Below are positions 28,423-43,881 of a DNA stretch of 43,881 nt, one piece after another. How positions within the stretch are numbered: position 1 is the stretch's first letter; each line of letters begins with the position of its first letter. The notes under the pieces were generated by a model. The model saw only the letters and a program-made list of their open reading frames with translations. It was not told the DNA's origin and did not search any database. Made by a program: the position numbers and the translations under genes. This stretch comes from Clostridiales bacterium (GTDB lineage Bacteria > Bacillota > Clostridia > Lutisporales > Lutisporaceae): positions 1 through 43,881 of the forward strand of contig JAAYMO010000253.1 of NCBI GenBank assembly GCA_012521375.1. Direction: 5' to 3'.

Positions 28423-29991
28423 CTAGAATTGGCTGAATGTTTGGAATGCACGAAGCACAAGTGATATAGCCATTTCTCTGGTTGTGTTGCTCTTTGGCAA
28501 GAAGTAAACTGCGCCACCGGCAGCTGGAGTACCATTTATAATGCCATTGGCATTCATGAACTTGACTGCGGACAATGCCCATGGTGAAATCTGATCTGCG
28601 TCAAGTACAGTTACCTGGAACTCTCCTGTTGCCTCCAATTGTGGCATAGCAGCTTGAAGTGTTCTGAATAGCATAGCAGATATCTGTTCTCTTGTGATTT
28701 CTAAATCTGGTGAGAACAATGTCATTTCTGGATTTGTTCCTTGAACTATACCAAGCTTGAATGCTTTCAAAACTTCGGGATTATCAGTATCTATGAAATT
28801 ATCTACTCCTGCTTCTGCCTTATTTCCTGTTAGTTTCTCGTATAAAAGAACAGCCAGCTCACAGAATTCTTCACGGGTAATATTCTTGGGGAATTGAGAG
28901 AGAACCTGTTCTGTAACAAGTCCTTGCTCAACAGCTTCGTTTACTTCAGGAGCAGCCCATGCGGATAAGCCATCTGTTCCTGCAGCAATCTCTTCAACTG
29001 GTGCTCCACCTACTGTAAATTCAGCCCTGCCGAATAATCCATATTCATATTCAGCTTCCTCCAAACCATATTTACAAAATACCCTTACTTCATACCTTCC
29101 AGGTTCTGAAGGGGCTTTGAATTCATAAACATTACCCATCTTTAAGTCTGCGATATATGAATTATGATAGGTATTTTGTAGTTTCTCATCATACTTCGCA
29201 ATACCCAACCATGCGCCTTCTTCTATTTCACCTGGGGTCAGACCATTTACTGTTACTGTCATAGCTTCTTCTGGAGCCGGGTTAGTTTTTGAAAGTACTA
29301 TATCTCCGGGTTTTGCTTTGCTGGATGTTACTATGAACTCAGCTTTGCCGAAAAATGATTCCTGTATATCAAGTCCGTAAGAAGAGAAGACTCTAACCTC
29401 ATACCTTCCGAACTTTGAGGGAGCTTCAAATTTGTAAGTATTATTAATGTCTAGATCATATACATATGAATCATGATAGGTATTCTCTAATTTTTCATCA
29501 TATTTAGCTATACCCAACCATGCTCCATTTTCGATTTGGCCTTCTGTGAGACCGTTTACTGTTACTGACATAGGCTCACGTAGCAGCACCTCGTTCTTAG
29601 AAAGTGTTATATCACCTTCCTTGGCTTTTGTTCCCACTACTGAAAAAGAAGCTTTTGCTATGAGATTGTCGTCATAATCAAAAACCCTTACTTCATAATT
29701 TCCATACTTAGAGGGAGCTTTAAACTTCCATACATTATTTAGCGGCAGATCATATGCATAAATCTCATGATAAGTATTTTCATATCTTGTATCTTCTTGC
29801 GCAATCCCAAGCCATGCACCGTCTTCGATCTGACTATTGGTTAATCCCTCTATTTTAGCCTGACCTTCCTCATTGACTGTGTATTCTGTCTTGTCCAGTG
29901 TTACTGTTCCTGATGCAAAGACAGGTATACTAAAAAATGCCGTTATGACTAAAGACAGAGTCAGAATAATAATTAGATAGCTTTTTTTCAT
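28423..29991 (-). CDS. S-layer-homology surface protein with three Ig-like repeats (copy A)
   Basis: 522-aa secreted protein. The signal peptide (residues 1-27, ending VFAS) is followed by three repeats of about 95 aa (28-119, 126-221, 228-327), each with GAWLGIA, a YDLxxNN/GN turn and a K/E-APSxxGxYEVRVF strand. They are Ig-like or Big-type beta-domains. The C-terminus (about 341-521) has three SLH modules (ITREEFCELAVLLYEKL, ITREQISAMLFRTLQ, TTREMAISLVLRAF), which anchor proteins to pyruvylated wall polymer. The start is the ATG at 29989-29991, with GGAGG ten bases before; a longer frame to 30006 lacks a ribosome site. It is a tandem paralogue of the gene at 30195-31751. Confidence 0.9.
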   Translation of the reverse strand: MKKSYLIIILTLSLVITAFFSIPVFASGTVTLDKTEYTVNEEGQAKIEGLTNSQIEDGAWLGIAQEDTRYENTYHEIYAYDLPLNNVWKFKAPSKYGNYEVRVFDYDDNLIAKASFSVVGTKAKEGDITLSKNEVLLREPMSVTVNGLTEGQIENGAWLGIAKYDEKLENTYHDSYVYDLDINNTYKFEAPSKFGRYEVRVFSSYGLDIQESFFGKAEFIVTSSKAKPGDIVLSKTNPAPEEAMTVTVNGLTPGEIEEGAWLGIAKYDEKLQNTYHNSYIADLKMGNVYEFKAPSEPGRYEVRVFCKYGLEEAEYEYGLFGRAEFTVGGAPVEEIAAGTDGLSAWAAPEVNEAVEQGLVTEQVLSQFPKNITREEFCELAVLLYEKLTGNKAEAGVDNFIDTDNPEVLKAFKLGIVQGTNPEMTLFSPDLEITREQISAMLFRTLQAAMPQLEATGEFQVTVLDADQISPWALSAVKFMNANGIINGTPAAGGAVYFLPKSNTTREMAISLVLRAFQTFSQF

Positions 29992-30033
29992 AGATTTTGC
30001 CTCCAATCATATAAAATTGATATTATTAGTTCC

Positions 30034-30194: not shown

Positions 30195-31751
30195 TTATAT
30201 ACCAGTAAATTTATTGAAGATTCTTAGCACTAAAGAAATAGCTTGTTCTCTGGTTGTATTCCCAAGTGGAAGTATATAAGAAACACCGCCTATTTCGGTT
30301 CCTTTTATAACATCATGGCTGTTCATGAATCTTACTGCTTCCAGTGCCCAGCTTGCTATCTGGCTTTCATCCTGGAACCTGGTCTTAAATTCTGCAGATG
30401 TGTTTATTGCAGGCATTACAGCTTTCAGAGTGCGCAGCAGCATTACAGCGATTTCCTGTCTTGTAACCTTGTTATTCGGTGCAAACTTGCCTTCCCCGAC
30501 ACCTCCAACAATACCGAGATTATAGGCTTTTAGAATTTCGGGATTGTTTGTGTCGTTGAACGGATTTGATGCAACGGGGGCAGCCTTAGTTCCTGTCATC
30601 TTTTCATATAGCAATACTGCCAATTCGCAGAACTCTTCACGGGTAATATCTTTTGGGAAATCCGAAAGAACCTTTTCTGTGACCAAGTCGTTTTTTACGG
30701 CTTCATTTACATCAGGGGCAGCCCATGCGGATAAGCCATTGGTACCGGGAGCTATCTCTTGAACTGGTGCTCCGCCTACAATAAATTCTGCTTTACCGAA
30801 CATTGCATATTCATATTCAGACTCATCTAAACCATATTTGCAAAATACCCTTACTTCATACCTTCCGGGTTCTGAAGGAGCTTTGAATTCATAAACATTA
30901 CCCATCTTTAAGTCTGTGATATATGAATTATGATAGGTATTTTGTAATTTCTCATCATACTTCGCAATACCCAACCATGCACCTGCTTCTATTTCGCCGG
31001 GGGTCAGGCCATTTACTGTTACTGTCATGGCTTCTTCCGGAGCTGGGTTAGTTTTTGACAGAACTATATCTCCCGGTTTTGCTTTACTGGATACCACTGT
31101 AAATTCTGCCTTGCCGAAGAATGATTCCTCTATATCAAGACCGTAAGAAGAGAAAACCCTGACCTCATATTTTCCGAAGCGTGATGGAGCTTCAAATTTG
31201 TAAGTATTATTCATGTCAAGATCAGACACATATGAATTATGATAGGTATTCTCTAATTTCTCATCATATTTTACAATACCTAACCATGCACCATTTTCAA
31301 TTTGACCTTCTGTGAGACCGTTTACTGTTACTGACATAGGTTCGCGTAGAAGCACTTCATTTTTTGAAACAGTTATATCGCCCTCTTTGGCTTTTGAACC
31401 GACTACAGAGAAGGAAGCAGATGCTATTAATTCACTAGTGTAGTAGTCGAGAAGTCTCACCTCATATTTTCCATATTGGCTTGGAACTCTAAATGTCCAT
31501 ACATTGTCCAAAGGCAGGTCATCGTAGTAAAGCTGAAAATCAGAGTTTTCATATCTTGTTCCTTCCGGAGCCAAGCATATACATAATTCTTCACCTGTTA
31601 CTCCAGAAAATGTAGCCTTTGCCTCTTCAAGTACGGTATATTCAGTCTTATCCAAAGTTATCGTACCTGATGTTGCAAAAACAGGCACACTTAAAACTGC
31701 AGACATGATTAAGCATAATACTAATATGAAGCTTATTGTTTTTTTCTTCAT
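30195..31751 (-). CDS. S-layer-homology surface protein with three Ig-like repeats (copy B)
   Basis: 518-aa paralogue of the SLH protein at 28423-29991 with the same layout: signal peptide (cleavage near VFA-TS), three Ig-like repeats and three SLH modules. Repeats 2 and 3 are nearly identical to copy A (for example GLTEGQIENGAWLGI, GDIVLSKTNPAPEEAMTVTV), while repeat 1 and the last SLH module differ more. In repeat 1 the GAWLGIA motif is replaced by ELCICLAPEGT. The start is the ATG at 31749-31751, preceded on the minus strand by GGGAGGG; an in-frame ATG at 31766 has none. Its own terminators separate it from copy A, so the two are independently expressed. Confidence 0.9.
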   Translation of the reverse strand: MKKKTISFILVLCLIMSAVLSVPVFATSGTITLDKTEYTVLEEAKATFSGVTGEELCICLAPEGTRYENSDFQLYYDDLPLDNVWTFRVPSQYGKYEVRLLDYYTSELIASASFSVVGSKAKEGDITVSKNEVLLREPMSVTVNGLTEGQIENGAWLGIVKYDEKLENTYHNSYVSDLDMNNTYKFEAPSRFGKYEVRVFSSYGLDIEESFFGKAEFTVVSSKAKPGDIVLSKTNPAPEEAMTVTVNGLTPGEIEAGAWLGIAKYDEKLQNTYHNSYITDLKMGNVYEFKAPSEPGRYEVRVFCKYGLDESEYEYAMFGKAEFIVGGAPVQEIAPGTNGLSAWAAPDVNEAVKNDLVTEKVLSDFPKDITREEFCELAVLLYEKMTGTKAAPVASNPFNDTNNPEILKAYNLGIVGGVGEGKFAPNNKVTRQEIAVMLLRTLKAVMPAINTSAEFKTRFQDESQIASWALEAVRFMNSHDVIKGTEIGGVSYILPLGNTTREQAISLVLRIFNKFTGI

Positions 31752-31864
31752 TAAATTCCCTCCCAATTAAAATTCAAAATCTTGCGAATATAGTTAAGGA
31801 TATTGTAGCATCAATGCTTCAGCATATCTTCCAAAATATTGGTAAAACATTCTAAAAAATTGCA

Positions 31865-31893
31865 TAAAAAAAGCCCTAGGCCTTCTAGGGACT
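31865..31893 (-). terminator. Terminator of the AraC-family pseudogene (minus strand)
   Basis: CCCTAG (31885-31890 complement) pairs with CTAGGG (31874-31879 complement), and seven T follow on the minus strand. The stem includes the TAG stop codon of the regulator. Its preservation suggests recent inactivation of the gene. Confidence 0.8.
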
Positions 31894-32769
31894 CATTCTA
31901 TACTCTGTTGGGGATAAACCGGTTTTTTTCTTAAATACTGTAGTGAAATGGCTATGGCTGGAAAAACCGCACATCATGCTTATTTCTGTAATGGTATAAT
32001 CTTTGGCTTTCAGCATCTTTTTTGCCTTTTCTATTTTAAGGTCAAGCAAGTATTCATAAGGAGTTTTATCCATTTGTTTCTTAAAGGCTCGTATGAATCT
32101 ATACTTATCCATGTTAATCAAGCTTGACAATTCATCACATGAAAGGGCACTAGTATAATTTTCATTCATATAATCTATTACTTTTTTTATATTGTCTTTA
32201 TATCCTCGTGGTTTGTTATGAGGCTTAGCAGGTAGATTGTGTTTTATATTTCGCATGAAGTTAACAACAATTAGGAGTGCAAGACTTTCTAATATAAATT
32301 CGTGACCAACCTGTTTGTATCAAAGCTCTTCCAAAAACAAATTAACAAGTAGGTTTATATCATGGTTTACAGTAGAAATATCATTTGAAAAAACTATACT
32401 AGGAGAATCATATAATTCAGTTGCAACACTTGCTACAATATTTTTGTCCACATGTATACCACAAAGACTAAAACCTTTAAGATCCTTTGCCACTCCGTGT
32501 TCCTGCATGGGATTGAATGCTATAATAGCTCCGGCAAACCCATCCTGCAATCTATTGTCTACTACTATTGAAGGTATATTGGCATGACATATACAGAATT
32601 CAAAACTGTTATGGACATGTGTTCCATGATTTATGCATGTTGCACGATTGGTAGTTATTACAGCCATATCTTTACTGCAAAAGTTTTCAATGACAACTTT
32701 TGGTTTGCCAATATTAGAGAAAGGTATAGAACCTGCCAGGCTTATGACTTTTTCCATATCAACCGTCAT
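31885..32769 (-). pseudogene. AraC-family regulator interrupted by an in-frame TGA
   Basis: The reading frame runs from ATG 32769 to TAG 31885 without any frameshift, about 294 codons, but has TGA at 32320-32322 where the intact neighbour has Lys. Upstream lies the cupin-like sensing domain (THVHNSFEFCICH), ending at LFLEEL; downstream lies VGHEF and then the complete AraC double helix-turn-helix (YRFIRAFKKQMDKTPYEYLL, ITEISMMCGFSSHSHF). Length and alignment to 32887-33768 are otherwise full. Promoter, ribosome site (GGAAGTGAG) and terminator are intact. It is most likely a recent nonsense mutation; the ATG at 32256 could still allow a free DNA-binding fragment. A sequencing error is possible. 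Confidence 0.85.
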
Positions 32770-32886: not shown

Positions 32887-33768
32887 TTAGATATCCATTC
32901 TATATTCAGATGGGGACAATCCAGTCCTTTTTCTAAATGTGTAAGTGAAATGGCTATGACTTGAAAAACCGCATATCATGCTTATTTCTGTGATGGTATA
33001 ATCTTTGGCTTTCAGCATAATCTTTGCCTTTTCTATTTTAAGATCCAGCAAGTATTCATAAGGAGTTTTATCCATCTGTTTCTTAAAGATTCGTATGAAT
33101 CTATACTTATCCATATTGATCAATTTAGATAATTCAGCACATGAAACACCGGTAGTATAATTTTCATTCATATAATCTATTACTTTTTTTATATTCTCTT
33201 TATATCCTCGTGGTTTATTATGAGGCTTAGACGGAAGGCTGTGTTCTATATTCCGCATTAGGTTACCAATAATCATATGTACAAGGTTTTCCATCATAAA
33301 TTTGTGACCAGCTTGTTTATGCTTCAGCTCTTCCAAGAACAAATTAGCAAGAAGTTTTATGTCATTATTCACTTTAAAATTCTCATTAGAAAATACTATA
33401 TTAGGTGAGCCATAAATTTCGTAGGCAACGCTTTCTACAGTTTCTCTCTTAATATGCACACCGCAAATACCAGAGTTTTTTATATCCATGGCTAAACCAT
33501 GGTCTTGCATGGGATTTACAGCAAACAAAGCATTCATGGGTCTGTCATATATCTTGTTATCTATAACACAGTGGGGTATTCTGGTCTGACAAATAACAAA
33601 TTCATAGCTGTCATGAAAATGAGTCCCATGACAGATGTTTGTGGATTTATTCGTAGTTACTATAGCAATATCGTTAGTACAAAAATCCTCTATAACAAAT
33701 TTTGCATTTTCAACGTTATCTATAGGAACAGCACCTGTAAGATGTGTCAGTCGATCCAGGCTAACCAT
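32887..33768 (-). CDS. AraC-family transcriptional regulator
   Basis: 293-aa regulator with an N-terminal cupin-like domain (residues about 20-120; THFHDSYEFVICQ has the His-rich cupin strand) and a C-terminal AraC/XylS double helix-turn-helix (about 190-290; YRFIRIFKKQMDKTPYEYLL, ITEISMICGFSSHSHFTYTF). The sensing domain likely binds a small ligand, perhaps a sugar or peptide. It is divergent from the giant surface-protein gene at 34011 and adjacent to the SLH genes, so it may control this surface locus. The start ATG (33766-33768) has GGAAGTGAG upstream. It is about 60-70% identical by eye to the interrupted copy next to it. Confidence 0.9.
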   Translation of the reverse strand: MVSLDRLTHLTGAVPIDNVENAKFVIEDFCTNDIAIVTTNKSTNICHGTHFHDSYEFVICQTRIPHCVIDNKIYDRPMNALFAVNPMQDHGLAMDIKNSGICGVHIKRETVESVAYEIYGSPNIVFSNENFKVNNDIKLLANLFLEELKHKQAGHKFMMENLVHMIIGNLMRNIEHSLPSKPHNKPRGYKENIKKVIDYMNENYTTGVSCAELSKLINMDKYRFIRIFKKQMDKTPYEYLLDLKIEKAKIMLKAKDYTITEISMICGFSSHSHFTYTFRKRTGLSPSEYRMDI

Positions 33769-33800
33769 AATATACTCACTTCCTATACTAATCTATTCAT

Positions 33801-33809
33801 ATTATACCA
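33801..33809 (-). promoter_or_regulatory. Extended -10 promoter of the AraC-family regulator
   Basis: TGGTATAAT on the minus strand is a perfect extended -10 about 33 bases before the start. The 242-base divergent gap (33769-34010) also holds a plus-strand TATAAT (33903-33908) that may serve the giant gene, and a short AATAGC/GCTATT inverted repeat near 33926-33939. Confidence 0.6.
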
Positions 33810-34010
33810 GATATTACATGATCAAAAAGTAAAAATTTACAGAAAGTTCAATAATATTAAAACGATTGCAATATGATGGAAGATAATGCAAATAAATTCC
33901 TTTATAATAGAATAAACCTTTGGAATAGCCAGCTATTGATATGATAGTAATGTCAAATTGATATTGGGGCTATACATGAAGGATAAAAAAAATATGAAGG
34001 AAGTGAGGTC

Positions 34011-37000
34011 GTGTATAAATCCAAAAAAACTACTGCTTTGTTGTTGTCTTTAATAATGATGTTCTCGCTTGTACTAAGCCCTCTCTCGGCAGTATATGCA
34101 AGCGAACAGCCAAAATTACCAAAAGTAGAGCCATCTAAAGATACTAAGACACCTACAACACCGCCAGATATAAACCCACTTAAAGCACCGCTAAATACAA
34201 AGCCATCTACAACACCAACATTACCAAATATACCATCAATAACTACTCCGAGTATATCTGCAGTAGCCTTGGAAAAAGCGGCCAGGGTTCAGGGAGTCAA
34301 TTACGAAGAAAAGGAAGGTATAAAGAGGGTTCCCGAAGGAGTAGTATATGAGCTGAGGGAATTGACACTTGATAGATTTTTTACCTACGACATTGATGAA
34401 AATGTTTCGATAGATGACATGGATGACGAAGAACTTCTTGAAAGGATAAATGGTATTAGAGTTCCTCCAGGAGCAAAAATTTTAGCAGTACCTCATAGTT
34501 ATTTGGAATTCTTTGCACCTGAAAAGAAAGAAATTTACATCGATGAAGAGCTGGGAAATGCATTTAAAATATTGAGATACGAAGGCAAGGATGAACATAA
34601 CAATAACCTTTATTCAGTGGAGATCCCTGATCTTTTGGAAGTATTCAGTTCTTACGAGATACCGGAGCAGACTGTTCATCTTACTACAGGCAACATCGCC
34701 TATATTGATCCGGACTTTGAACTGAGCCCGGAAAGCGGAATGCCCAAAAACTATATTGCAAAGGCAAATGACTCTGTGCTGTATGAAGATTCAATTGTAA
34801 AAGTTACAGCAGATGGGAATAAACATATTCTGACGCTGAAAAGCAATGTAATGGTATTCGAATATCCATTTAAGGATAAAGGGAGAAATCTCGATAAAAA
34901 GAAGTTAGAGAAAGATGAAGAGGAAAAAGAATATTACAGTGATGTAAAAGGGGAAGATAATAAAACCAATCTCAAAGTGGCTGTGAGAGTAAAAGAGGGA
35001 AGCAGTGTAGTTGTAGAAAATCCAAAACTCAATGTAAAGATGGAAATTAATCCACTTACTTCTCAGTTGGATGCTAAATTTGCTTTTGATTGTAAGGCTA
35101 CAGCAGATATAACATTGCTTGGAGAGTTGGCCTTTAATCATACTTTGGAAAAATGCGTATATGGCTACGATATAAATTTAGGAAAGGTTGCAGGAAAAGA
35201 AAAGGGAAATGCAGCTTTTGTAGGAATATTTTTGGTTCTAGGTGTAAATGGCGAGATAAATGTAGAGGTTAGAACAATGACCACAGGAGATGCAGAGGCA
35301 GGTTTTGCATATAAATCTATCGGTTGGGGCAGCTTGCCTTATTATATAGGACCATATGCTACGTTTAGGCCTGCATCCTTTGATATGAGCTTCACAGTAG
35401 ATGGTGAGATTCATGCAACTTTGGCATGTGTTCCGCAAGTAGGAGTAGTAATCTGGGGATGTGAACTTGGAGTACTTCAAATATGGGTAGGCTTTAAATC
35501 ATCAGCAGAATTCCATTTCCAAGGAGGTGGAGGCACAGATACTGAGGAAACTTTCAGCGGAGAAGGCACCATTGATTTGCGGGCCTTCGGCGAGCTGGTT
35601 GGTTATCTAATCGGAAGGAGATATTCCATCTTCTATATTGAATTGCCCATCTTCAAAGGAGAATGGAAGATAGGGCAGGAAGTTTCAGGCAGCGGAGGAG
35701 ATGGGGTAAGGAAGGTGTTACCATATTTCCAGGTAACAGCTGATGCATATTCAAATATAGTGGAAGGGAAAGTGGCGTTTTCGACCTCTGGGAAAGTTAA
35801 TACAGGATATATGGGCAAGGACATAGGTGAATCTGCTGGTTTTGAGAAATATAGCAATGGTGCTGTTATTGTGAAAGTATATGATAGGGAAGGAATATTA
35901 AAACTCGAACATGTCACTGGAACTGATGATAATGGAAAATTCTCCGTAAATTACGGTAATTTATTGGCCACTGATTGGGTTGAAGTAGAAGTTCCGGAGA
36001 ATGAGAGCCCCGTAATCACTTTAGAAGATGGGAAAAAATTTAAGGTAGCAGGAGTAAGCAAACGCATAAGGGCTACGGTGCCTTTTATCGAAATGGACTT
36101 TAATGTAGATACCCTCAATGATGTGATTACAGGCTGGGTATCGGGAGATTATACAGGACCCGTTACTATTAAAATATGGCATATGGATAATTCTATAGTT
36201 ACCAAAGTAGTAAATGCACAAGGTGGTATATTTAGACTTGATTATCCCATCGATCGGAATACACTTCATGTGACGGTAGATATTCCATTCGAAGGTAGGT
36301 CATTTGGTACAGGAGAGTTGAAGGGCAGGAACCTTGATGCAATAGAAATAATATCAAAGATAGAATATGAATATTGGCCAGAGGAACACGTAGATTCTAT
36401 TATGGAGAGGTTTGGAACCAATCCTGCTTGGCAGAATGCAGCAGACGTTAACAAAAAATTTTTGGGTATTTCTGAAGAAGAGTTTTTTGAAGGACTTGAA
36501 CGTGCTGTGAGTATCAAAAGTAAAAAAGTAGTTGGTAGAATAATCAACAAAGGCGCTATGAGCTGGTTGGAAAAACAAGGAGCTAACTATGTAAGACCGG
36601 AAACAGACAGCGGAAATACTAAATGGTGTGATGCCACTGTAAAAATAACAGAAATACCCATAATATCAGAAGAGCTTCTAAGTGCTATACAACGCTATAG
36701 ACAACTTCATCCACAAAGAACAATTCCCGGTGTGAGTAGTCATGTTGGTGGTATGGAGGTATACAGAGCTACAACACGAACAACACAGGAGATGGGATTA
36801 AGGCTCAAAAGGGATGGCAGCAGTCCTTCAGGATATGCAATAGAAACATATCCTACATCTACAGCTAAGTTTGAGTTTGATCCTGGGTGCATAGCATATA
36901 GAATTGAGGTAGAATACGAAGGTCTGACTGTTGTGCATGAATATTGCCCATATGAAACCCATGTCGCTGAACTTTATGAGGATGAGCCAAGCATGTCAGA

Positions 37001-37226
37001 TATAATCGGTCCTTTGAGGGAGGCATACAGACTGAGATCACAAGAGAGGATAGAATCAGTAATTAATCCGGCACAAGAAAGACTAAATCCGGCACAAGAA
37101 AGACTAAATCCGATACAAGAAAGATTAAATCTGGTAGAACAACAAATGAATCCTGTAGAACAACAATTAAATCCAGTAGAAGGTTTGCAAAACCAGCAAC
37201 TGGATAGACAGCAACAAAATCGTTAA
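34011..37226 (+). CDS. Giant secreted protein of an unrecognised family (paralogue 1)
   Basis: 1071-aa protein with a signal peptide (cleavage near YA30-SE), a Pro/Thr-rich linker (32-85), and a long region that matches the protein at 39716-43183 along its length. Shared blocks are AARxQGVxY (about 90), HLTTGNIAYI (about 230), a Lys/Glu-rich charged patch (about 290-315), and the best-conserved core (about 398-560) with AFVGIFLVLG, ACVPQVGVVIWG, LQIWVG, GGGGT, IDLRAFGELVG, YSIFYIELPIFKGEW. After residue 570 come two carboxypeptidase-regulatory-like beta units (NDVITGWVSGDYTGPV). It ends in six 7-residue NPxxERL-type repeats. There is no SLH or sortase anchor. The start is GTG 34011 with GGAAGTGAGG upstream. 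Function unknown; placement suggests a surface role. Confidence 0.85.
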   Translation: MYKSKKTTALLLSLIMMFSLVLSPLSAVYASEQPKLPKVEPSKDTKTPTTPPDINPLKAPLNTKPSTTPTLPNIPSITTPSISAVALEKAARVQGVNYEEKEGIKRVPEGVVYELRELTLDRFFTYDIDENVSIDDMDDEELLERINGIRVPPGAKILAVPHSYLEFFAPEKKEIYIDEELGNAFKILRYEGKDEHNNNLYSVEIPDLLEVFSSYEIPEQTVHLTTGNIAYIDPDFELSPESGMPKNYIAKANDSVLYEDSIVKVTADGNKHILTLKSNVMVFEYPFKDKGRNLDKKKLEKDEEEKEYYSDVKGEDNKTNLKVAVRVKEGSSVVVENPKLNVKMEINPLTSQLDAKFAFDCKATADITLLGELAFNHTLEKCVYGYDINLGKVAGKEKGNAAFVGIFLVLGVNGEINVEVRTMTTGDAEAGFAYKSIGWGSLPYYIGPYATFRPASFDMSFTVDGEIHATLACVPQVGVVIWGCELGVLQIWVGFKSSAEFHFQGGGGTDTEETFSGEGTIDLRAFGELVGYLIGRRYSIFYIELPIFKGEWKIGQEVSGSGGDGVRKVLPYFQVTADAYSNIVEGKVAFSTSGKVNTGYMGKDIGESAGFEKYSNGAVIVKVYDREGILKLEHVTGTDDNGKFSVNYGNLLATDWVEVEVPENESPVITLEDGKKFKVAGVSKRIRATVPFIEMDFNVDTLNDVITGWVSGDYTGPVTIKIWHMDNSIVTKVVNAQGGIFRLDYPIDRNTLHVTVDIPFEGRSFGTGELKGRNLDAIEIISKIEYEYWPEEHVDSIMERFGTNPAWQNAADVNKKFLGISEEEFFEGLERAVSIKSKKVVGRIINKGAMSWLEKQGANYVRPETDSGNTKWCDATVKITEIPIISEELLSAIQRYRQLHPQRTIPGVSSHVGGMEVYRATTRTTQEMGLRLKRDGSSPSGYAIETYPTSTAKFEFDPGCIAYRIEVEYEGLTVVHEYCPYETHVAELYEDEPSMSDIIGPLREAYRLRSQERIESVINPAQERLNPAQERLNPIQERLNLVEQQMNPVEQQLNPVEGLQNQQLDRQQQNR
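37065..37190 (+). repeat. Tandem 21-bp repeat encoding NPAQERL-type heptads
   Basis: Six consecutive 21-bp units (37065, 37086, 37107, 37128, 37149, 37170) encode NPAQERL twice, NPIQERL, NLVEQQM, NPVEQQL and NPVEGLQ. The first two units are almost identical in DNA. The array forms the C-terminal tail of the giant protein and is predicted to be helical; unit number could vary by slippage. Confidence 0.88.
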
Positions 37227-37240
37227 AATAATTTGATTCT

Positions 37241-37271
37241 GGGCTCCATCTCCGAAAGGGGCTGGAGTCCC
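37241..37271 (+). terminator. Possible attenuator/terminator hairpin after giant gene 1
   Basis: GGGCTCCA (37241-37248) pairs with TGGAGTCCC (37263-37271) with one bulge, followed by TTCTGTTT. The T-tail is weak and the next gene starts 25 bases on, so partial termination or coupling is likely. Confidence 0.5.
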
Positions 37272-37295
37272 TTCTGTTTAGAAAGGGGTGAAATA

Positions 37296-39524
37296 ATGAG
37301 AAAAGTAATAATACTGATATGTTTTAGCATTATGATGTCATTATGTTTACCTGTGAATGCAGATACTTTTCCTGCAGGCAAAATAAATCTTCCAAATCCG
37401 GATTCGCTGCCAATACTACTAGACCCAAGACTTCAGCCTCTAACTTTCAGCCCTCCGGAAGGCTTGGAACTGGTAAAAGCAGAGAAAAATCTGGTTTCTA
37501 TCAAGTGGAAAGATACAGCAGTAATAGAAACACTATATGTAGTGGAAAGAAAAACAGAAAACGGGAGCTATGCTGAAATAAAAGTTCTACCAAAGGATAG
37601 CGTTTCCTTTGAAGATATAACAGTGGAACCGGGAATCACTTACTACTATAGGGTAAAGGCCGGAAAAGAGGAAAAGAACTCAGCAACAGGAAAAATGGAA
37701 ATCAAATACTCAGCATACTCTAATGAACTTAAGGTGACTACACCAACATCAGATGGAACAACAACCGGTGGGCCAATTAAGGATATAAAGATCATTGGAG
37801 AAGTGAAAAGACCGAGCCTGGAAGTCAAACCAAAGCTACCTGACATAAGTATAAAACCTGACCTTGGGACTGTTCTTGGAACAGGTACAGATACAGAAAC
37901 AGATACAAGCACAGGAACAGGTACGGAAACAGGTACAGGATCAGGAATAGGTAAGTTTCTGGAATTAGGTATAGACCCAGGAAGCTTAACCAAACCTGGA
38001 GCAATTACTATTCCTGGTAGTGGAACTGAATCCGGTACAATTACAGATACTGAAACTACACCAGGAACTCAGAGTCAAGACGCAACTATTTCTGCAGAGA
38101 TAAAGGCTCCTGAAGGATTAGTAGGAGAAGCAATAAGCGAGAATCAAATTGCCCTTGCATGGCAGGATAAATCAGATAATGAGTTGGGGTTTTTATTATA
38201 TAGAACGGCTACAGGAGAATGGGAAGAAGCAGCAGTATTGAATGCGAATACAACTGAATATGTAGATGCAAATCTTTTGCCAAATACCACATATTACTAC
38301 GTATTGTTTGCATACAATGAAACCAGTATATCAACGGAATCAAATTTTGTTGAGATAACAACTCCAAAAGCAGCACAGACTCAAGTAACGGCTCCAGCTG
38401 CACCTGAAGCACTTGCAGCAGAGGCTAAAAGCCCTACAGAAGTTGTACTCACCTGGATAGATAAATCAGATAATGAACAAGGCTTTATAATTTACAGGAC
38501 TTCTACCGGAGAATGGGAGCAGGCTGCAGTAGTAAGCGCTAATACTACTACCTATACAGATATTAACCTTAAGCCTAACACTACCTATTACTATGCAGTA
38601 TTTGCATACAGAGACAGTAGTTTTTCCGCGCAATCCAATATTGCAGAGGTTTTGACTACACAAGCTGCATCAACAGCTTTAACAGCTCCTGAAGGACTTA
38701 CAGCTCAAGCACAGAAACCCAATGAAGTTTTATTAACTTGGCAGGATAAATCAGATAACGAAGATGGATTTTTACTATATAGGACATCCACAGGAGATTG
38801 GGAAGTAATAGCAACACTAGGTGCTAATGTAACTACTTTTACAGATATTGCAGTTCAGCCCAATACAAAATATTACTATGTAGTATATGCATTTGCAGGA
38901 GAAACACCTTCGACAGAATCAAATATGGTTGAGATAACTACCCCAAGTCAGACTACAGCTACAACGGTGGATTTCACAGGAGCAAGCAGCTGGGCATTGG
39001 AAGAATTAAAAAAGGCCGTAGACTATGGCTTGTATACAGACAGGATAATGAACAATTATACCCAAAGTATAACACGTGAAGAATTCTGTGAACTGGTAGT
39101 AAAGCTTTATGAAAAACTGAAAGGTATAGCGGCTGTTCCTGTATCACCGAACCCATTTATAGATACCTCTAACGAAAACATACTCAAGGCATACGGTGCA
39201 GGAATTGTAACCGGAACAAGTGCAAATACGTTTTCTCCCAACAATCTCATCACCAGACAGGATATATGTGTTATGCTCTATAGAGCAATAACAGGCTCAG
39301 TTACCAATGTGGATACAAATATAGACGGGGTTCCTGCTTTTACAGATGAAAACCTGATAGGTCAATGGGCTGTCAAAGAAGTGAAATTTGCAGTAAAGAA
39401 CAATATTATGCAAGGCTCAGCTTCAAAGATTATGCCAAGAGACAATACCACCAGAGAACAAGCCGTATTACTTGTGGTGAGAGTATATGAGAGATTTACA
39501 GATACAAAGCAGATAAACAAATAA
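37296..39524 (+). CDS. Surface protein with fibronectin type III repeats and SLH domains
   Basis: 742-aa exported protein. The signal peptide (1-23, ending NAD) is followed by FnIII domain 1 (about 53-148), a Thr/Gly/Glu-rich linker with TGTETGT-like runs (about 153-265), three highly similar FnIII domains (about 269-355, 365-453, 463-548; each with LxWxDKSDNExGF, YRTxTGxWE and PNTxYYY), and three C-terminal SLH modules (about 561-742; ITREEFCELVVKLYEKL, ITRQDICVMLYRAI, TTREQAVLLVVRVYE). The SLH part resembles those of the two minus-strand SLH proteins. The ATG at 37296 has AAGGGGTG upstream; an in-frame start at 37233 lies before the hairpin. It sits between the two giant paralogues and likely anchors to the wall with them. 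Confidence 0.9.
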   Translation: MRKVIILICFSIMMSLCLPVNADTFPAGKINLPNPDSLPILLDPRLQPLTFSPPEGLELVKAEKNLVSIKWKDTAVIETLYVVERKTENGSYAEIKVLPKDSVSFEDITVEPGITYYYRVKAGKEEKNSATGKMEIKYSAYSNELKVTTPTSDGTTTGGPIKDIKIIGEVKRPSLEVKPKLPDISIKPDLGTVLGTGTDTETDTSTGTGTETGTGSGIGKFLELGIDPGSLTKPGAITIPGSGTESGTITDTETTPGTQSQDATISAEIKAPEGLVGEAISENQIALAWQDKSDNELGFLLYRTATGEWEEAAVLNANTTEYVDANLLPNTTYYYVLFAYNETSISTESNFVEITTPKAAQTQVTAPAAPEALAAEAKSPTEVVLTWIDKSDNEQGFIIYRTSTGEWEQAAVVSANTTTYTDINLKPNTTYYYAVFAYRDSSFSAQSNIAEVLTTQAASTALTAPEGLTAQAQKPNEVLLTWQDKSDNEDGFLLYRTSTGDWEVIATLGANVTTFTDIAVQPNTKYYYVVYAFAGETPSTESNMVEITTPSQTTATTVDFTGASSWALEELKKAVDYGLYTDRIMNNYTQSITREEFCELVVKLYEKLKGIAAVPVSPNPFIDTSNENILKAYGAGIVTGTSANTFSPNNLITRQDICVMLYRAITGSVTNVDTNIDGVPAFTDENLIGQWAVKEVKFAVKNNIMQGSASKIMPRDNTTREQAVLLVVRVYERFTDTKQINK
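38103..38940 (+). repeat. Three tandem FnIII-encoding repeats of about 285 bp
   Basis: Units starting near 38103, 38392 and 38685 encode FnIII domains that share DKSDNE, YRT, TG-WE and PNT-YYY at matched places, separated by short Ala/Thr/Gln-rich spacers. They arose by internal duplication. The DNA is similar but not identical. Confidence 0.85.
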
Positions 39525-39543
39525 ATATATCTATATATAATAT

Positions 39544-39566
39544 GAACGCACATGCGTTCTTTTTTT
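39544..39566 (+). terminator. Rho-independent terminator after the FnIII/SLH gene
   Basis: GAACGC and GCGTTC form a six-base stem with an ACAT loop, followed by eight T. The remaining 150 bases to 39716 hold the promoter of the next gene. Confidence 0.9.
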
Positions 39567-39634
39567 AATGCATGGAAACACAAAAATTTTTTACAATTTT
39601 TCGAAAAAATAATCAATAATTTAAAAGCTTTTAT

Positions 39635-39664
39635 TTGACTTTTTTCTTATTATAGAGTTAATAT
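39635..39664 (+). promoter_or_regulatory. Candidate sigma-A promoter of giant gene 2
   Basis: TTGACT (39635-39640), an 18-base spacer and TAATAT (39659-39664). The start point would be near 39671, 45 bases before the ATG. Confidence 0.45.
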
Positions 39665-39715
39665 TGCGCAATTGGAACAGTTTCCCAAAAATTATTTTCA
39701 AGAGGAAGTGAAGAA

Positions 39716-42700
39716 ATGAATAAGCTTAATAAGAGCATTTCGCTGTTATTATCTCTGGTGATGGTTTTTTCTATTTTAATATCACCCTTTTCGGTGGCGG
39801 AAGCTAGTGTACCCATCGCACCTACCAGGCGTACTATACAGGATACTTTAAAGACACCAGACGATATTAAAGCCCCAAATATCAGCACACCCCAAATTGA
39901 TACAGACCTTCTTGATTTGGGTATTAAGGATCGGGACAGACTAAAAAGGGAAATCGGGAAGCTTGTCCAGGTAGAAACTGCCGCCAGGGCTCAGGGAGTC
40001 ACATATAAATTAAAAGATGGAGTAGAAAAAATACCTGAAACCATCAATTATAATCTGGAACAGATAAGGCTGGATGATATAGTGGCTTATGGAGATGGAG
40101 CTAAGGTTACAGAGCAAGAAGCCATAGATCCAAAAAAATTCAAAGGATTAAGGTATAATCCTGGTTCTAAATACATGGTTCTTCCAAAAGACACTGCCTC
40201 AACCTTTGCACCAAAACTTAACAAAATATATATTGATGAAGTGGAAGGATTAGCCTATAAGATTACTGAAGCTGGAGAAACGGATCCAGAGGGGAATAAA
40301 CAATACGTAGTAGAGACACCGGCTCTAACTGATATTTTCGAATCCTATAAGATACCAAAACAAGACATAAAACTTACTACAGGAAACATAGCCTATATCG
40401 GACCGGGCGTTGAATTGGACCCAATGAGCGGTATGACTAGAAACTACCAAGCCGCAAGTGATAAGGGCTTCATATCAAATGTTGAATATGATGGAAACAG
40501 ACATATCCTACACCTTACTCCTGGCAAAATGATATTCCAATATCCTTCTAAGGAAGAACAAAAAAAGACAGAGAAAGAAAAGGAAGAAGAAAAGAAGAAA
40601 AAGTTTGAGGGAGACTGGTGGGAGAAAGAACAGTACTCAGATCTAAGAGGCTTTGAAGAAGAATCGGAAATGAAGGTTGAAATAAAAATAAAAGAAGGAA
40701 CCATAATCATAGAAGATCCAACCTTTCACGCAGACTTTGACCTGAACTGGTTGACCACCCAAGCTATTGCAGACTTTTACTTTGAATCAAAAACCAAAGC
40801 AGATGTCGTATTTGAAGGTGAATTGAAATTTAACAAAACCGTTGAAACCTGTATATTTGGATATGATATTGACCTGGGATCAATAATGGGTAAAGAAAAA
40901 GGAAATAGAGCCTTTGTTGGAATATTTCTTGTACTTGGTGCCAACGGCCAAGTCAATGTGGAAGTAAGAACTATTGCTACAGGCAATGCAAGAGCAGGCT
41001 TTGCCTATAAAGCAGTTGCCTACGGCCTTGTCCCTTACTTTGTCGGCCCCTATGTAACATACAGACCCACAGGATTTGATGCTACCTTTAGCGCCAATGG
41101 AGAGCTTCATGCTGTATTGGCTTGTGTACCACAGGTAGGCGTCATAATATGGGGTACGGAGATAGGTGCTTTGCAAATCTGGCTGGGATTGAAAGGAGAT
41201 GCTGAATTCGATGTCAGGGGAGGGGGTGGTACTAGCAGCCAAGGGGAAATTGTCGGCAGGGGCTCACTGGATCTTAGAGCCTTTGCGGAAATGGTGGGCT
41301 TCCTATTTGGTAATAGGTACTCTATCTTTTATTTAGATTTTCCAATATACAAAGGGGAATGGATTGTTGGAGAACAGGTAGCAGGCGGAGCGGGAGACCT
41401 GGTAAGGGAAGTGGCAGCCAGTTTCCTTATAAAGGCTGATGCCAGCACCAATATGATAGAAGGCAAAGTAGTAATCGGCGAGGATTTAACACCTTATGCA
41501 AAAAGGGATATAGATATAGAAATATACAACTGGAGGACAGATAAGTATAAAATTACACTCAGAAGTACCACTGATGATGAGGGAAACTTCAGTATAAACA
41601 CCGGCTCATACAACTTACTGCCGTCAGACTATATAATCCTCAAAATTACACCGGCAGATTTATATGAAAGAGATAATAAAAAGTATAATGTAACAGGCCA
41701 AAGCCGAAAAATATATCCAACTGTTCCTTATACAGAAATGGATTTCAGTGTGGATCCTTTCAACGATGTGATTACAGGTGTAGTATCAGGCCAATATAAT
41801 GGTCCTGTCAATTTAGAGGTGGTACATTGGGATTGGACCAGGACAAAATACACAGCAAATGCGGTAAACGGAGTTTTCTCATTAATGGTACCTATAAAGG
41901 AAAAAACCAGATCAGTAGAAGGTTACTTAATCTTCGAAGGAGAAAAATATCCTGATTACGATTATAATGTGGTAAGAGAACCAAGTCTGGATGCATTAGA
42001 AATAGTATTCATAAACGAATATGAACCTGAAGTTGAGACAGATACTGAGCAACAAACCAGCACAATAAGAGAAATTCGAAGCACAAGACCTAGGAAAGGC
42101 GATGCCAGTACTCAAGACACCAATACTAGAGAAGAAAATACCGACGATAAAGGAAACAAATTAGTAAAACCCATTAAGATAATCGGAAGCATAACCAATA
42201 AGGCAGATATGGGTTTGGTAGAGGTAATGGGAGAAGATTATGTAAGAAATCCAGAATTAAATAATATATCTGTAAAGCCATATCTTGGAAATGTGAAGAT
42301 AGAAGCTATACCGCTAATTACTCCTATGATGAACATATTAAACGGAGGGAAATACTCGCATGTAACTGATCCATTGGCTGCAGAAGATGACTGGACTGCC
42401 ACTGTTCAAGCTAAACAGGTCGTGATGGACGGTAAAGCTACAGGAGCGTCCTCCTTCGAATTCGCTGATCCTCAAGCTCTTCACTATAGCATAGAAATAG
42501 AACATGAAGGATACAAGAAAAAGGTTTACTTTGACCCATTTGAATTCCATGTTGAAAATACTGTGCAAAAAATCAATGAATTTGCAAACAGACCATTCCA
42601 GAAGGAAATAAGACTAATAACAGAAGAGAGGATAGAATCAGTAGTGAATCCTGCAGATAATCTGCTACCTGGAGATATAATGAGACCAGGCAATGAAATT

Positions 42701-43183
42701 ATGAATCCAGGTGACATGATGAACCCCGGAAACAGATTAAATCCAGGTGATATCATGAATCCTGGAAACCTTATGACTCCGGGAAACACAATGAATCAGC
42801 AAAATAATGCACCTGATATAAGCCTGAACAACCTGACTCCGGGAGCAACCATGAAACAAAGCGTAAAGCAGCCTGCAACAACTTCTTTAGAGCAATGGAA
42901 TGCAAAATGGACTACCAAAATTGGCACCATGGATCTGAAACTAAACGGAACATCTATATCAGGAACTCTGGTACAGGGGAAAACTGCCTACCAGATAGAA
43001 GGTAAAATAGTAGACGGAGTATTCAAAGGAACCGTGATGATACCATCAGAAACATCGTTGTTTGGTGATATAGCATCCTTTGAAATGCAAATGTCATCAG
43101 ACGGCAAGAGCATAGAATTCAAAAACTTCGGCAGCAATACACAATTAAAGAGCCTGAATGGTACTAAGGCAACAAGGCAGTAA
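39716..43183 (+). CDS. Giant secreted protein of an unrecognised family (paralogue 2)
   Basis: 1155-aa paralogue of the protein at 34011-37226 with the same 30-residue signal peptide length (cleavage near EA30-SV) and the same block order: AARAQGVTY, KLTTGNIAYI, a longer Lys/Glu patch (about 278-305), and the core at about 395-558 (AFVGIFLVLG, ACVPQVGVIIWG, LQIWLG, GGGGT, LDLRAFAEMVG, YSIFYLDFPIYKGEW). Beta-rich units follow (NDVITGVVSGQYNGPV near 685). The C-terminal part differs: an Asn-Pro-Gly repeat tail (about 984-1027) and an extra domain (about 1060-1150; WNAKWTTKIGTMDLKLNG, SGTL, IEGKI) resembling small beta-barrel modules in secreted proteins. No wall anchor is present. AGGAAGTG precedes the ATG. 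Function unknown. Confidence 0.85.
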   Translation: MNKLNKSISLLLSLVMVFSILISPFSVAEASVPIAPTRRTIQDTLKTPDDIKAPNISTPQIDTDLLDLGIKDRDRLKREIGKLVQVETAARAQGVTYKLKDGVEKIPETINYNLEQIRLDDIVAYGDGAKVTEQEAIDPKKFKGLRYNPGSKYMVLPKDTASTFAPKLNKIYIDEVEGLAYKITEAGETDPEGNKQYVVETPALTDIFESYKIPKQDIKLTTGNIAYIGPGVELDPMSGMTRNYQAASDKGFISNVEYDGNRHILHLTPGKMIFQYPSKEEQKKTEKEKEEEKKKKFEGDWWEKEQYSDLRGFEEESEMKVEIKIKEGTIIIEDPTFHADFDLNWLTTQAIADFYFESKTKADVVFEGELKFNKTVETCIFGYDIDLGSIMGKEKGNRAFVGIFLVLGANGQVNVEVRTIATGNARAGFAYKAVAYGLVPYFVGPYVTYRPTGFDATFSANGELHAVLACVPQVGVIIWGTEIGALQIWLGLKGDAEFDVRGGGGTSSQGEIVGRGSLDLRAFAEMVGFLFGNRYSIFYLDFPIYKGEWIVGEQVAGGAGDLVREVAASFLIKADASTNMIEGKVVIGEDLTPYAKRDIDIEIYNWRTDKYKITLRSTTDDEGNFSINTGSYNLLPSDYIILKITPADLYERDNKKYNVTGQSRKIYPTVPYTEMDFSVDPFNDVITGVVSGQYNGPVNLEVVHWDWTRTKYTANAVNGVFSLMVPIKEKTRSVEGYLIFEGEKYPDYDYNVVREPSLDALEIVFINEYEPEVETDTEQQTSTIREIRSTRPRKGDASTQDTNTREENTDDKGNKLVKPIKIIGSITNKADMGLVEVMGEDYVRNPELNNISVKPYLGNVKIEAIPLITPMMNILNGGKYSHVTDPLAAEDDWTATVQAKQVVMDGKATGASSFEFADPQALHYSIEIEHEGYKKKVYFDPFEFHVENTVQKINEFANRPFQKEIRLITEERIESVVNPADNLLPGDIMRPGNEIMNPGDMMNPGNRLNPGDIMNPGNLMTPGNTMNQQNNAPDISLNNLTPGATMKQSVKQPATTSLEQWNAKWTTKIGTMDLKLNGTSISGTLVQGKTAYQIEGKIVDGVFKGTVMIPSETSLFGDIASFEMQMSSDGKSIEFKNFGSNTQLKSLNGTKATRQ
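42665..42796 (+). repeat. Degenerate tandem repeat encoding Asn-Pro-Gly (NPGD/NPGN) units
   Basis: About eight units of 15-18 bp encode PGDIM, PGNEIM, NPGDMM, NPGNRL, NPGDIM, NPGNLM, TPGNTM in series. They begin right after the RIESVVNP motif where the paralogue starts its NPAQERL array. Predicted to be a flexible, turn-rich tail. Confidence 0.85.
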
Positions 43184-43199
43184 AAGCATAGTAGTTTGT

Positions 43200-43228
43200 A
43201 AGAGCATACCACATGGTGTGCTCTTTTG
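43200..43228 (+). terminator. Rho-independent terminator after giant gene 2
   Basis: AAGAGCATACC (43200-43210) pairs with GGTGTGCTCTT (43215-43225; one G-T pair) across ACAT, followed by a short T-run. Confidence 0.82.
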
Positions 43229-43297
43229 CTATATATTGAAGGATTTTCCGAATATATGTCAAATAGTAATATACAGAATATATAAAAAATTTTTATA

Positions 43298-43358: not shown

Positions 43359-43881
43359 ATGCACGATGTCACTCAAATTGAAAGACAACTATATATTCTA
43401 TCTTTGTTATCCGAAAGCAAGATAGGTTATACAATTGATGAACTTAAGAAAAAACTTGATGCGGTAGGGATTAATGTGAGCAAAAAAACCATTGGAAGAG
43501 ACATAGATTTCTTGTCTACTGGAAACTTCTTTGTTACAGAAGAAAAAAAGAACAAAAAAACATATTTTATGGCCAACAAATTCGGAATAGAGAATATAAC
43601 ATTTTCACCATCGGAACTCATATCTTTACATTTCATTAAAGAACTTCTGAAATCTTATTCAGCACTAGATATTGGTAATACTGCAATAAATCTAATAGAT
43701 AGAATCATAGCCACACTTCCAAAGTTAGACAAAGCATACCTTCAAAATCTTACTGAGCTTATAAAAGTAAACGAGATATTTATCTATTCGGAGAAGAACA
43801 TCAGTCAAGAAATAATAGATAACATTAGAAAAGGTATAGAGCTTGGTAAAAGACTTTGTATAAAGTACCACTCCTTTAACA
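43359..43881 (+). CDS. WYL/HTH-type transcriptional regulator, 3'-truncated
   Basis: The frame is open from ATG 43359 to the window end (174 codons). The N-terminus has a DeoR/HTH_11-type winged helix: QLYILSLLSESKIGYTIDEL, then the recognition segment VSKKTIGRDIDFLS. After about residue 85 comes the helical linker typical of WYL-domain regulators (SPSELISLHFIKELL), and the visible end GKRLCIKYHSFN looks like the first WYL strand. WYL regulators sense nucleic acids or small ligands and control defence and stress genes. Only a weak ribosome site (GGGGGA, 43341-43346) is seen. The target is unknown; the giant surface gene upstream ends in a terminator and is not co-transcribed. Confidence 0.8.
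   Translation, partial: MHDVTQIERQLYILSLLSESKIGYTIDELKKKLDAVGINVSKKTIGRDIDFLSTGNFFVTEEKKNKKTYFMANKFGIENITFSPSELISLHFIKELLKSYSALDIGNTAINLIDRIIATLPKLDKAYLQNLTELIKVNEIFIYSEKNISQEIIDNIRKGIELGKRLCIKYHSFN

Follow-up and report, generated by a model that had tools for sequence, protein, structure and literature searches.

The locus examined here raises the question of how two very large and apparently secreted proteins, neither with a recognisable anchor of its own, could be held on a clostridial cell, and what they might do there. The genes lie in a stretch of 43,881 nucleotides (the window) from a draft genome of 2.84 Mb that is 97% complete. The closest named record with genes of this type is Lutispora saccharofermentans (genome G003, same genus), which places the source organism in the Lutispora group of Clostridia. 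The features concerned are the following.

28423–30006, minus strand: second SLH protein, 72% identical to the product of 30195–31766
30195–31766, minus strand: SLH protein with a weak MG-like (bMG6) match (SLH/MG)
31885–32769, minus strand: second AraC-family gene, a probable pseudogene with an in-frame stop at codon 150
32887–33768, minus strand: AraC-family regulator, divergent from p1 (Pfam HTH_18, 5.2e-21)
33969–43236, no strand: module missing at the same site in genome G001 (approximate extent, from comparison with G001)
34011–37226, plus strand: core protein p1, ORF of 1071 aa
34962–35708, plus strand: long-strand beta core of p1 (residues 318–566), the conserved part that defines the family
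37299–39524, plus strand: p2, with signal sequence, FnIII domains and C-terminal SLH repeats; the proposed anchor
39544–39559, plus strand: terminator-like hairpin with T tail, 3' of p2 (consensus match only)
39635–39664, plus strand: promoter-like site TTGACT-18-TAATAT, upstream of p3 (consensus match only)
39716–43183, plus strand: core protein p3, paralogue of p1, ORF of 1155 aa
42890–43180, plus strand: C-terminal WxGxW-type module of p3 (last 97 residues)
43359–43880, plus strand: start of a WYL-domain regulator, 3' of p3

A preliminary description of this locus, made from the sequence, had proposed a pair of giant secreted paralogues flanking an SLH/FnIII gene. This arrangement was confirmed, with p1 and p3 aligning from end to end (39% identity, 666 bits) and identity peaking at residues 401–500 (64–66%), as compared with about 25–35% in residues 751–1000. 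The three motifs given as marks of the conserved core (AFVGIFLVLG, ACVPQVGV-IWG and YSIFY) were all found in both proteins. The N-termini of p1 and p3, read by eye, resemble an ordinary Sec signal sequence, and export by Sec would be expected for both. In p1 the signal sequence is followed by a low-confidence N-terminal linker, an N-terminal domain (about 90–285), the long-strand beta core (about 318–566), two small beta domains (about 566–790) and a poorly predicted C-terminal part and tail. The proposal that p1 and p3 lack wall anchors also stood, as neither matches any Pfam wall-anchor domain; no match to SLH or FnIII was obtained with Pfam for either protein.

The protein encoded between them does carry both domain types as described, with FnIII in four stretches (fn3, 1.4e-22) and SLH in two (3.2e-15), all above the Pfam cut-off, and both minus-strand genes of the nearby pair were likewise found to carry SLH. 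The p2 ORF spans 37233–39524 (763 aa), with its likely start being the ATG at 37299, as judged by visual inspection of the ribosome site and signal sequence. The gap between p1 and p2 is short, a terminator-like site was seen 3' of p2 only and p3 has a promoter-like site of its own, although promoter-like sites overall in the scan were not above shuffled expectation. It may be that p1 and p2 form one transcription unit. The gap itself (37227–37298, plus strand) contains a GC-rich inverted repeat, GGGCTCCA...TGGAGTCCC, with no T run, possibly an mRNA processing or attenuation element. Rfam gave no match on the window.

To which family the conserved core belongs had been left as a question, and no known family could be assigned to it. 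No match at the curated cut-off was detected in Pfam or NCBIfam with the proteins, a 13-row profile or a diverse 18-row core profile, and no match to PDB sequences was found by profile. Single weak Pfam matches (DUF2807, DUF3244 and CarboxypepD_reg) were left unused. The core family is absent from the libraries searched and is unnamed. Membership was defined as a match along a 450-position core profile, which takes in p1 and p3 with their clade A relatives and the clade B members described below. By this measure members are present in 12 of 22 genomes of the same family, in 13 of 391 sampled genomes of the class (mostly from one family) and in three of 398 sampled genomes of the phylum, one of the three being the window's own genome. 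There was no match to the core in plasmids and phages.

A phylogenetic tree separated two clades with full support on the branch between them. Clade A consists of p1, p3 and their relatives, all within the Lutispora family, and clade B of further members from the same family together with G150 and G137 from the class and G470 and G510 from the phylum. As the tree program flagged long branches, details within the clades are unsure, and the fine branching near p3 is unreliable since p3 entered as a longer stretch (824 aa) than the other rows. It should also be noted that the row G013_b carries the label for no SLH neighbour, whereas SLH repeats are present in its next ORF. In G018, a block that includes a GTPase gene and a core gene of clade B is present in two inverted copies on contig C196 (L072:8371–18001); the duplication may be real or an assembly artefact.

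The preliminary description further proposed that SLH genes are partners of the core genes, and a survey of gene neighbourhoods upheld this for one clade only. An SLH gene was observed near the core gene in seven of the eight informative clade A genomes (G000, G003, G005, G011, G016, G018 and G020), with G012 being the sole one without; G002 was left out of this count, its contigs being too short. By chance, an SLH neighbour would be expected at about 5% per genome, assuming 12 SLH loci per 2.8 Mb. Orthologues of p2 at 71–73% identity were seen in G000, G005, G018 and G020 only, all of which have clade A core genes, so that at a threshold of at least 70% identity the count is four clade A genomes against none of 14 other family genomes. 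SLH/MG relatives were found in all eight core-bearing clade A genomes examined (G000, G002, G003, G005, G011, G016, G018 and G020) and in three of the 14 remaining family genomes. Fisher values calculated from such counts overstate the significance because the genomes are related and not independent samples, and the clade B count used in that test (1/9) was entered manually after inspection of the neighbourhood lists.

An SLH partner is missing for most clade B homologues: no adjacent SLH gene was seen except at G013_b, with SLH matches about 8 kb from the core gene in G009 and G013_a counted as non-adjacent. The SLH link is thus a property of a single clade, and the family as a whole does not share it. 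At G013_b the next ORF overlaps the core ORF in another frame and has an SLH match above the Pfam cut-off, and the two may be one gene split by a frame change. The core proteins of G150 and G470 end in a Cu_amine_oxidN1 domain, and the C-terminus of that of G137, read by eye, has a hydrophobic segment and a positively charged tail. In parts of clade B, then, an anchor in the same chain apparently replaces one provided in trans.

With moderate confidence, p1 and p3 are regarded as non-catalytic surface-display proteins held on the SLH layer in trans by the FnIII/SLH protein p2. Following export by Sec, each would present a beta core of long strands and, after it, small beta domains acting as spacers. 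The SLH repeats of p2 would bind the wall polymer, p1 and p3 thereby being held at the surface, and its FnIII domains may either contact p1 and p3 or space the anchor. Four of the eight counted clade A genomes have no close p2 orthologue, which means that p2 cannot be the sole anchor; where it is missing an SLH/MG protein would have to take this role, and SLH/MG proteins could be alternative holders of p1 and p3 on the SLH layer more generally. The export and surface location of p1 and p3, their contact with p2, the AraC control and a role in a coat or in attachment are all inferred.

The strongest competing explanation is that p1 and p3 are secreted and not wall-held, acting as soluble binding proteins outside the cell (their ligand being, for example, a polymer or nutrient) and encoded in a region rich in SLH genes. 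Such proteins would need no anchor, in keeping with the Pfam result, and the same explanation would suit both the clade B homologues without an SLH neighbour and the SLH/AraC pairs that occur without a core gene. It is nonetheless unlikely in view of the SLH gene near the core in seven of eight clade A genomes, the confinement of close p2 orthologues to genomes with clade A core genes and the apparent same-chain anchors of several clade B members.

How far display of p1 and p3 through p2 amounts to a dedicated surface assembly, as the preliminary description had it, depends on how its parts are distributed. The clade A core protein G005_a has an FnIII-like domain of its own, which was found with a profile derived from the FnIII of p2 and missed by Pfam. 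No PDB or Pfam match was found for the WxGxW-type module at the end of p3. The module was seen again in proteins of about 590 aa that also contain an FnIII-like and a Cu_amine_oxidN1 domain, and it occurs twice in an FnIII-like protein whose gene immediately precedes one for an SLH protein. This recurrence indicates that core, WxGxW, FnIII, SLH and Cu_amine_oxidN1 domains are mixed among the surface-type proteins of these genomes. The term "dedicated assembly" is too strong, as the parts look interchangeable and the SLH and AraC genes exist without the core; what remains of it is the linkage within clade A. In genomes from outside the Lutispora family, other large genes come after the core gene (L098:4780–10816, L067:4541–10519 and L099:9106–14636), with a TPR protein encoded 3' of the core gene in G150, one with a similar start in G510 and a DUF6055 protein in G470, suggesting that these core genes have different partners.

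A comparison with G001, a 97% complete genome of the same genus, provides an empty site. No match to the core profile was found anywhere in G001, yet one contig keeps the left flank of the module (HTH, SdpI, DUF4397, DUF4015, SLH/MG and AraC, at about 63–94% identity) and the WYL regulator of the right flank (80%), AraC and WYL being about 1 kb apart. G001 matches window positions 33780–33844 well and 33901–33969 weakly, then 43236–43265, with unrelated sequence between and no trace of p1–p3 remnants in the AraC–WYL kilobase. As both flanks are kept without the module, it behaves as a presence/absence cassette. In G003 and G005 an SLH/MG gene lies on one side and a WYL gene on the other, and the contents between them differ, with a MalT-like LuxR regulator among them. 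G001, G010 and a second contig of G020 have the SLH/MG gene together with AraC while no core gene is present at the site. The whole module may well have been gained, exchanged or lost as a cassette, which would be expected of a variable coat or attachment layer on the cell surface.

The WYL-domain gene was dropped as a member of the set because relatives carry CRISPR-cas genes beside it, and it probably does not belong to the surface system. In those relatives (L103:12162–19265 and L026:16821–19999) it is followed by genes for Cas6, a DevR/Csa2-type protein and Cas3, and a CRISPR-Cas locus may lie just beyond the end of the window.

The empty site also bears on the idea that p1 and p3 are structural subunits of an S-layer lattice, with p2 linking them to the wall polymer. 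Their large size, mostly beta prediction, occurrence as tandem paralogues and SLH partner would all fit such subunits. SLH-type lattice proteins, however, usually bear the anchor in their own chain, and absence of the module from G001 argues against an essential coat, making this explanation improbable.

With regard to regulation, it had been suggested that divergent AraC genes control the set. Only the intact gene at 32887–33768 is divergent from p1; the gene at 31885–32769 lies in tandem with it on the same strand and is interrupted by the stop. The interrupted gene is 64% identical to its intact tandem paralogue, and, among the relatives seen, it is closest to the intact AraC of G001 (84% identity). 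Relatives of the window AraC occur near core or SLH genes in other genomes. AraC-family genes were observed near clade A core genes in G000, G002, G003, G005, G011, G012 and G018, and near clade B core genes at G013_c, in G021 and, beside a truncated clade B member, in G016. A histidine kinase and response regulator are encoded near the core gene in G150, and a response regulator in G510. A 21-base box beside AraC recurs with 0–5 mismatches at five of 12 AraC promoters; it was not found upstream of SLH genes or of most core genes, and no shared operator was detected upstream of all genes of the set. With the box present at some AraC promoters and not at SLH genes, control of the whole set by the AraC regulators is no more than plausible.

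What the core itself might do was approached through structure prediction. The AlphaFold model of full-length p1 was poor (pLDDT 57, pTM 0.32), and Foldseek at full length returned only Ig/FnIII-type proteins with very low TM-scores, which were not used. The core alone (residues 318–566, 13 sequences) gave a model graded as fair (pLDDT 81.7, pTM 0.62), namely an all-beta domain with strands of 38–40 residues in which hydrophobic and polar residues partly alternate. Foldseek with this model against the PDB and viral models yielded nothing significant, none of the best matches having an E-value below 0.017, a probability above 0.11 or a TM-score above 0.14. The profile search and core structure prediction, as run, thus gave neither a known family nor, by Foldseek, a known fold. 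Within the core, almost all columns invariant across the family are Gly, Pro or hydrophobic, and invariant Asp is confined to the domains that follow; in clade A the only polar side chains at invariant core columns are one Gln, besides one Tyr. With Gly or Pro at almost every invariant position, the core is unlikely to be an enzyme. The first of the two small beta domains 3' of the core has a conserved D-x-x-G-x-F motif; by eye these domains look transthyretin- or carboxypeptidase-regulatory-like, and Pfam gives one weak match and no placement.

A further possibility, a pore-forming protein whose long amphipathic strands enter a membrane as a beta hairpin or barrel, was set aside as unsupported and is very improbable. 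Beyond the partial alternation, it draws on top Foldseek matches to pore-forming proteins that are non-significant and could arise with any long-strand model, and PDB profile searches gave no sequence relation to such proteins. The core family resembles a modular coat or attachment protein of the cell surface and not a new kind of machine. A bolder version, in which the core is an undescribed beta fold, clade A displays it on the S-layer through a new non-covalent FnIII/SLH pairing and the cassette swaps surface identity between related species, is tentative and rather doubtful.

Comparison with known systems places these proteins more precisely. In cellulosomes, an SLH protein serving as anchoring scaffoldin holds other proteins in trans. 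The present locus is similar in having an SLH-anchored protein beside large anchor-less secreted proteins, for which display in trans is proposed here; it differs in that no cohesin or dockerin (Pfam, E ≤ 1) and no glycoside hydrolase was found in p1–p3, so that it does not qualify as a cellulosome-type scaffold. By domain content p2 is an ordinary member of the SLH/FnIII surface proteins (Pfam PF00395 and PF00041), from which p1 and p3 differ in matching neither domain. Variable S-layer cassettes have been described in Clostridioides difficile (PMC6254364); they share with this locus the character of a variable surface-protein locus but involve other protein families and another type of anchor, the variation here being between species of one genus. 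Proteins with Cu_amine_oxidN1 (PF07833) have been reported in surface extracts of Desulfotomaculum reducens (PMC4137172); the clade B proteins of G150 and G470 share this terminal domain, whereas the window proteins are without it. A literature search returned nothing on Lutispora combined with S-layers.

The analysis defines a protein family missed by current libraries, with two clades and apparently interchangeable anchors. It also provides a natural setting in which to test how proteins without anchors may be retained in S-layers of the SLH type, for which G001, as a genome of the same genus without the module, is a ready comparison.
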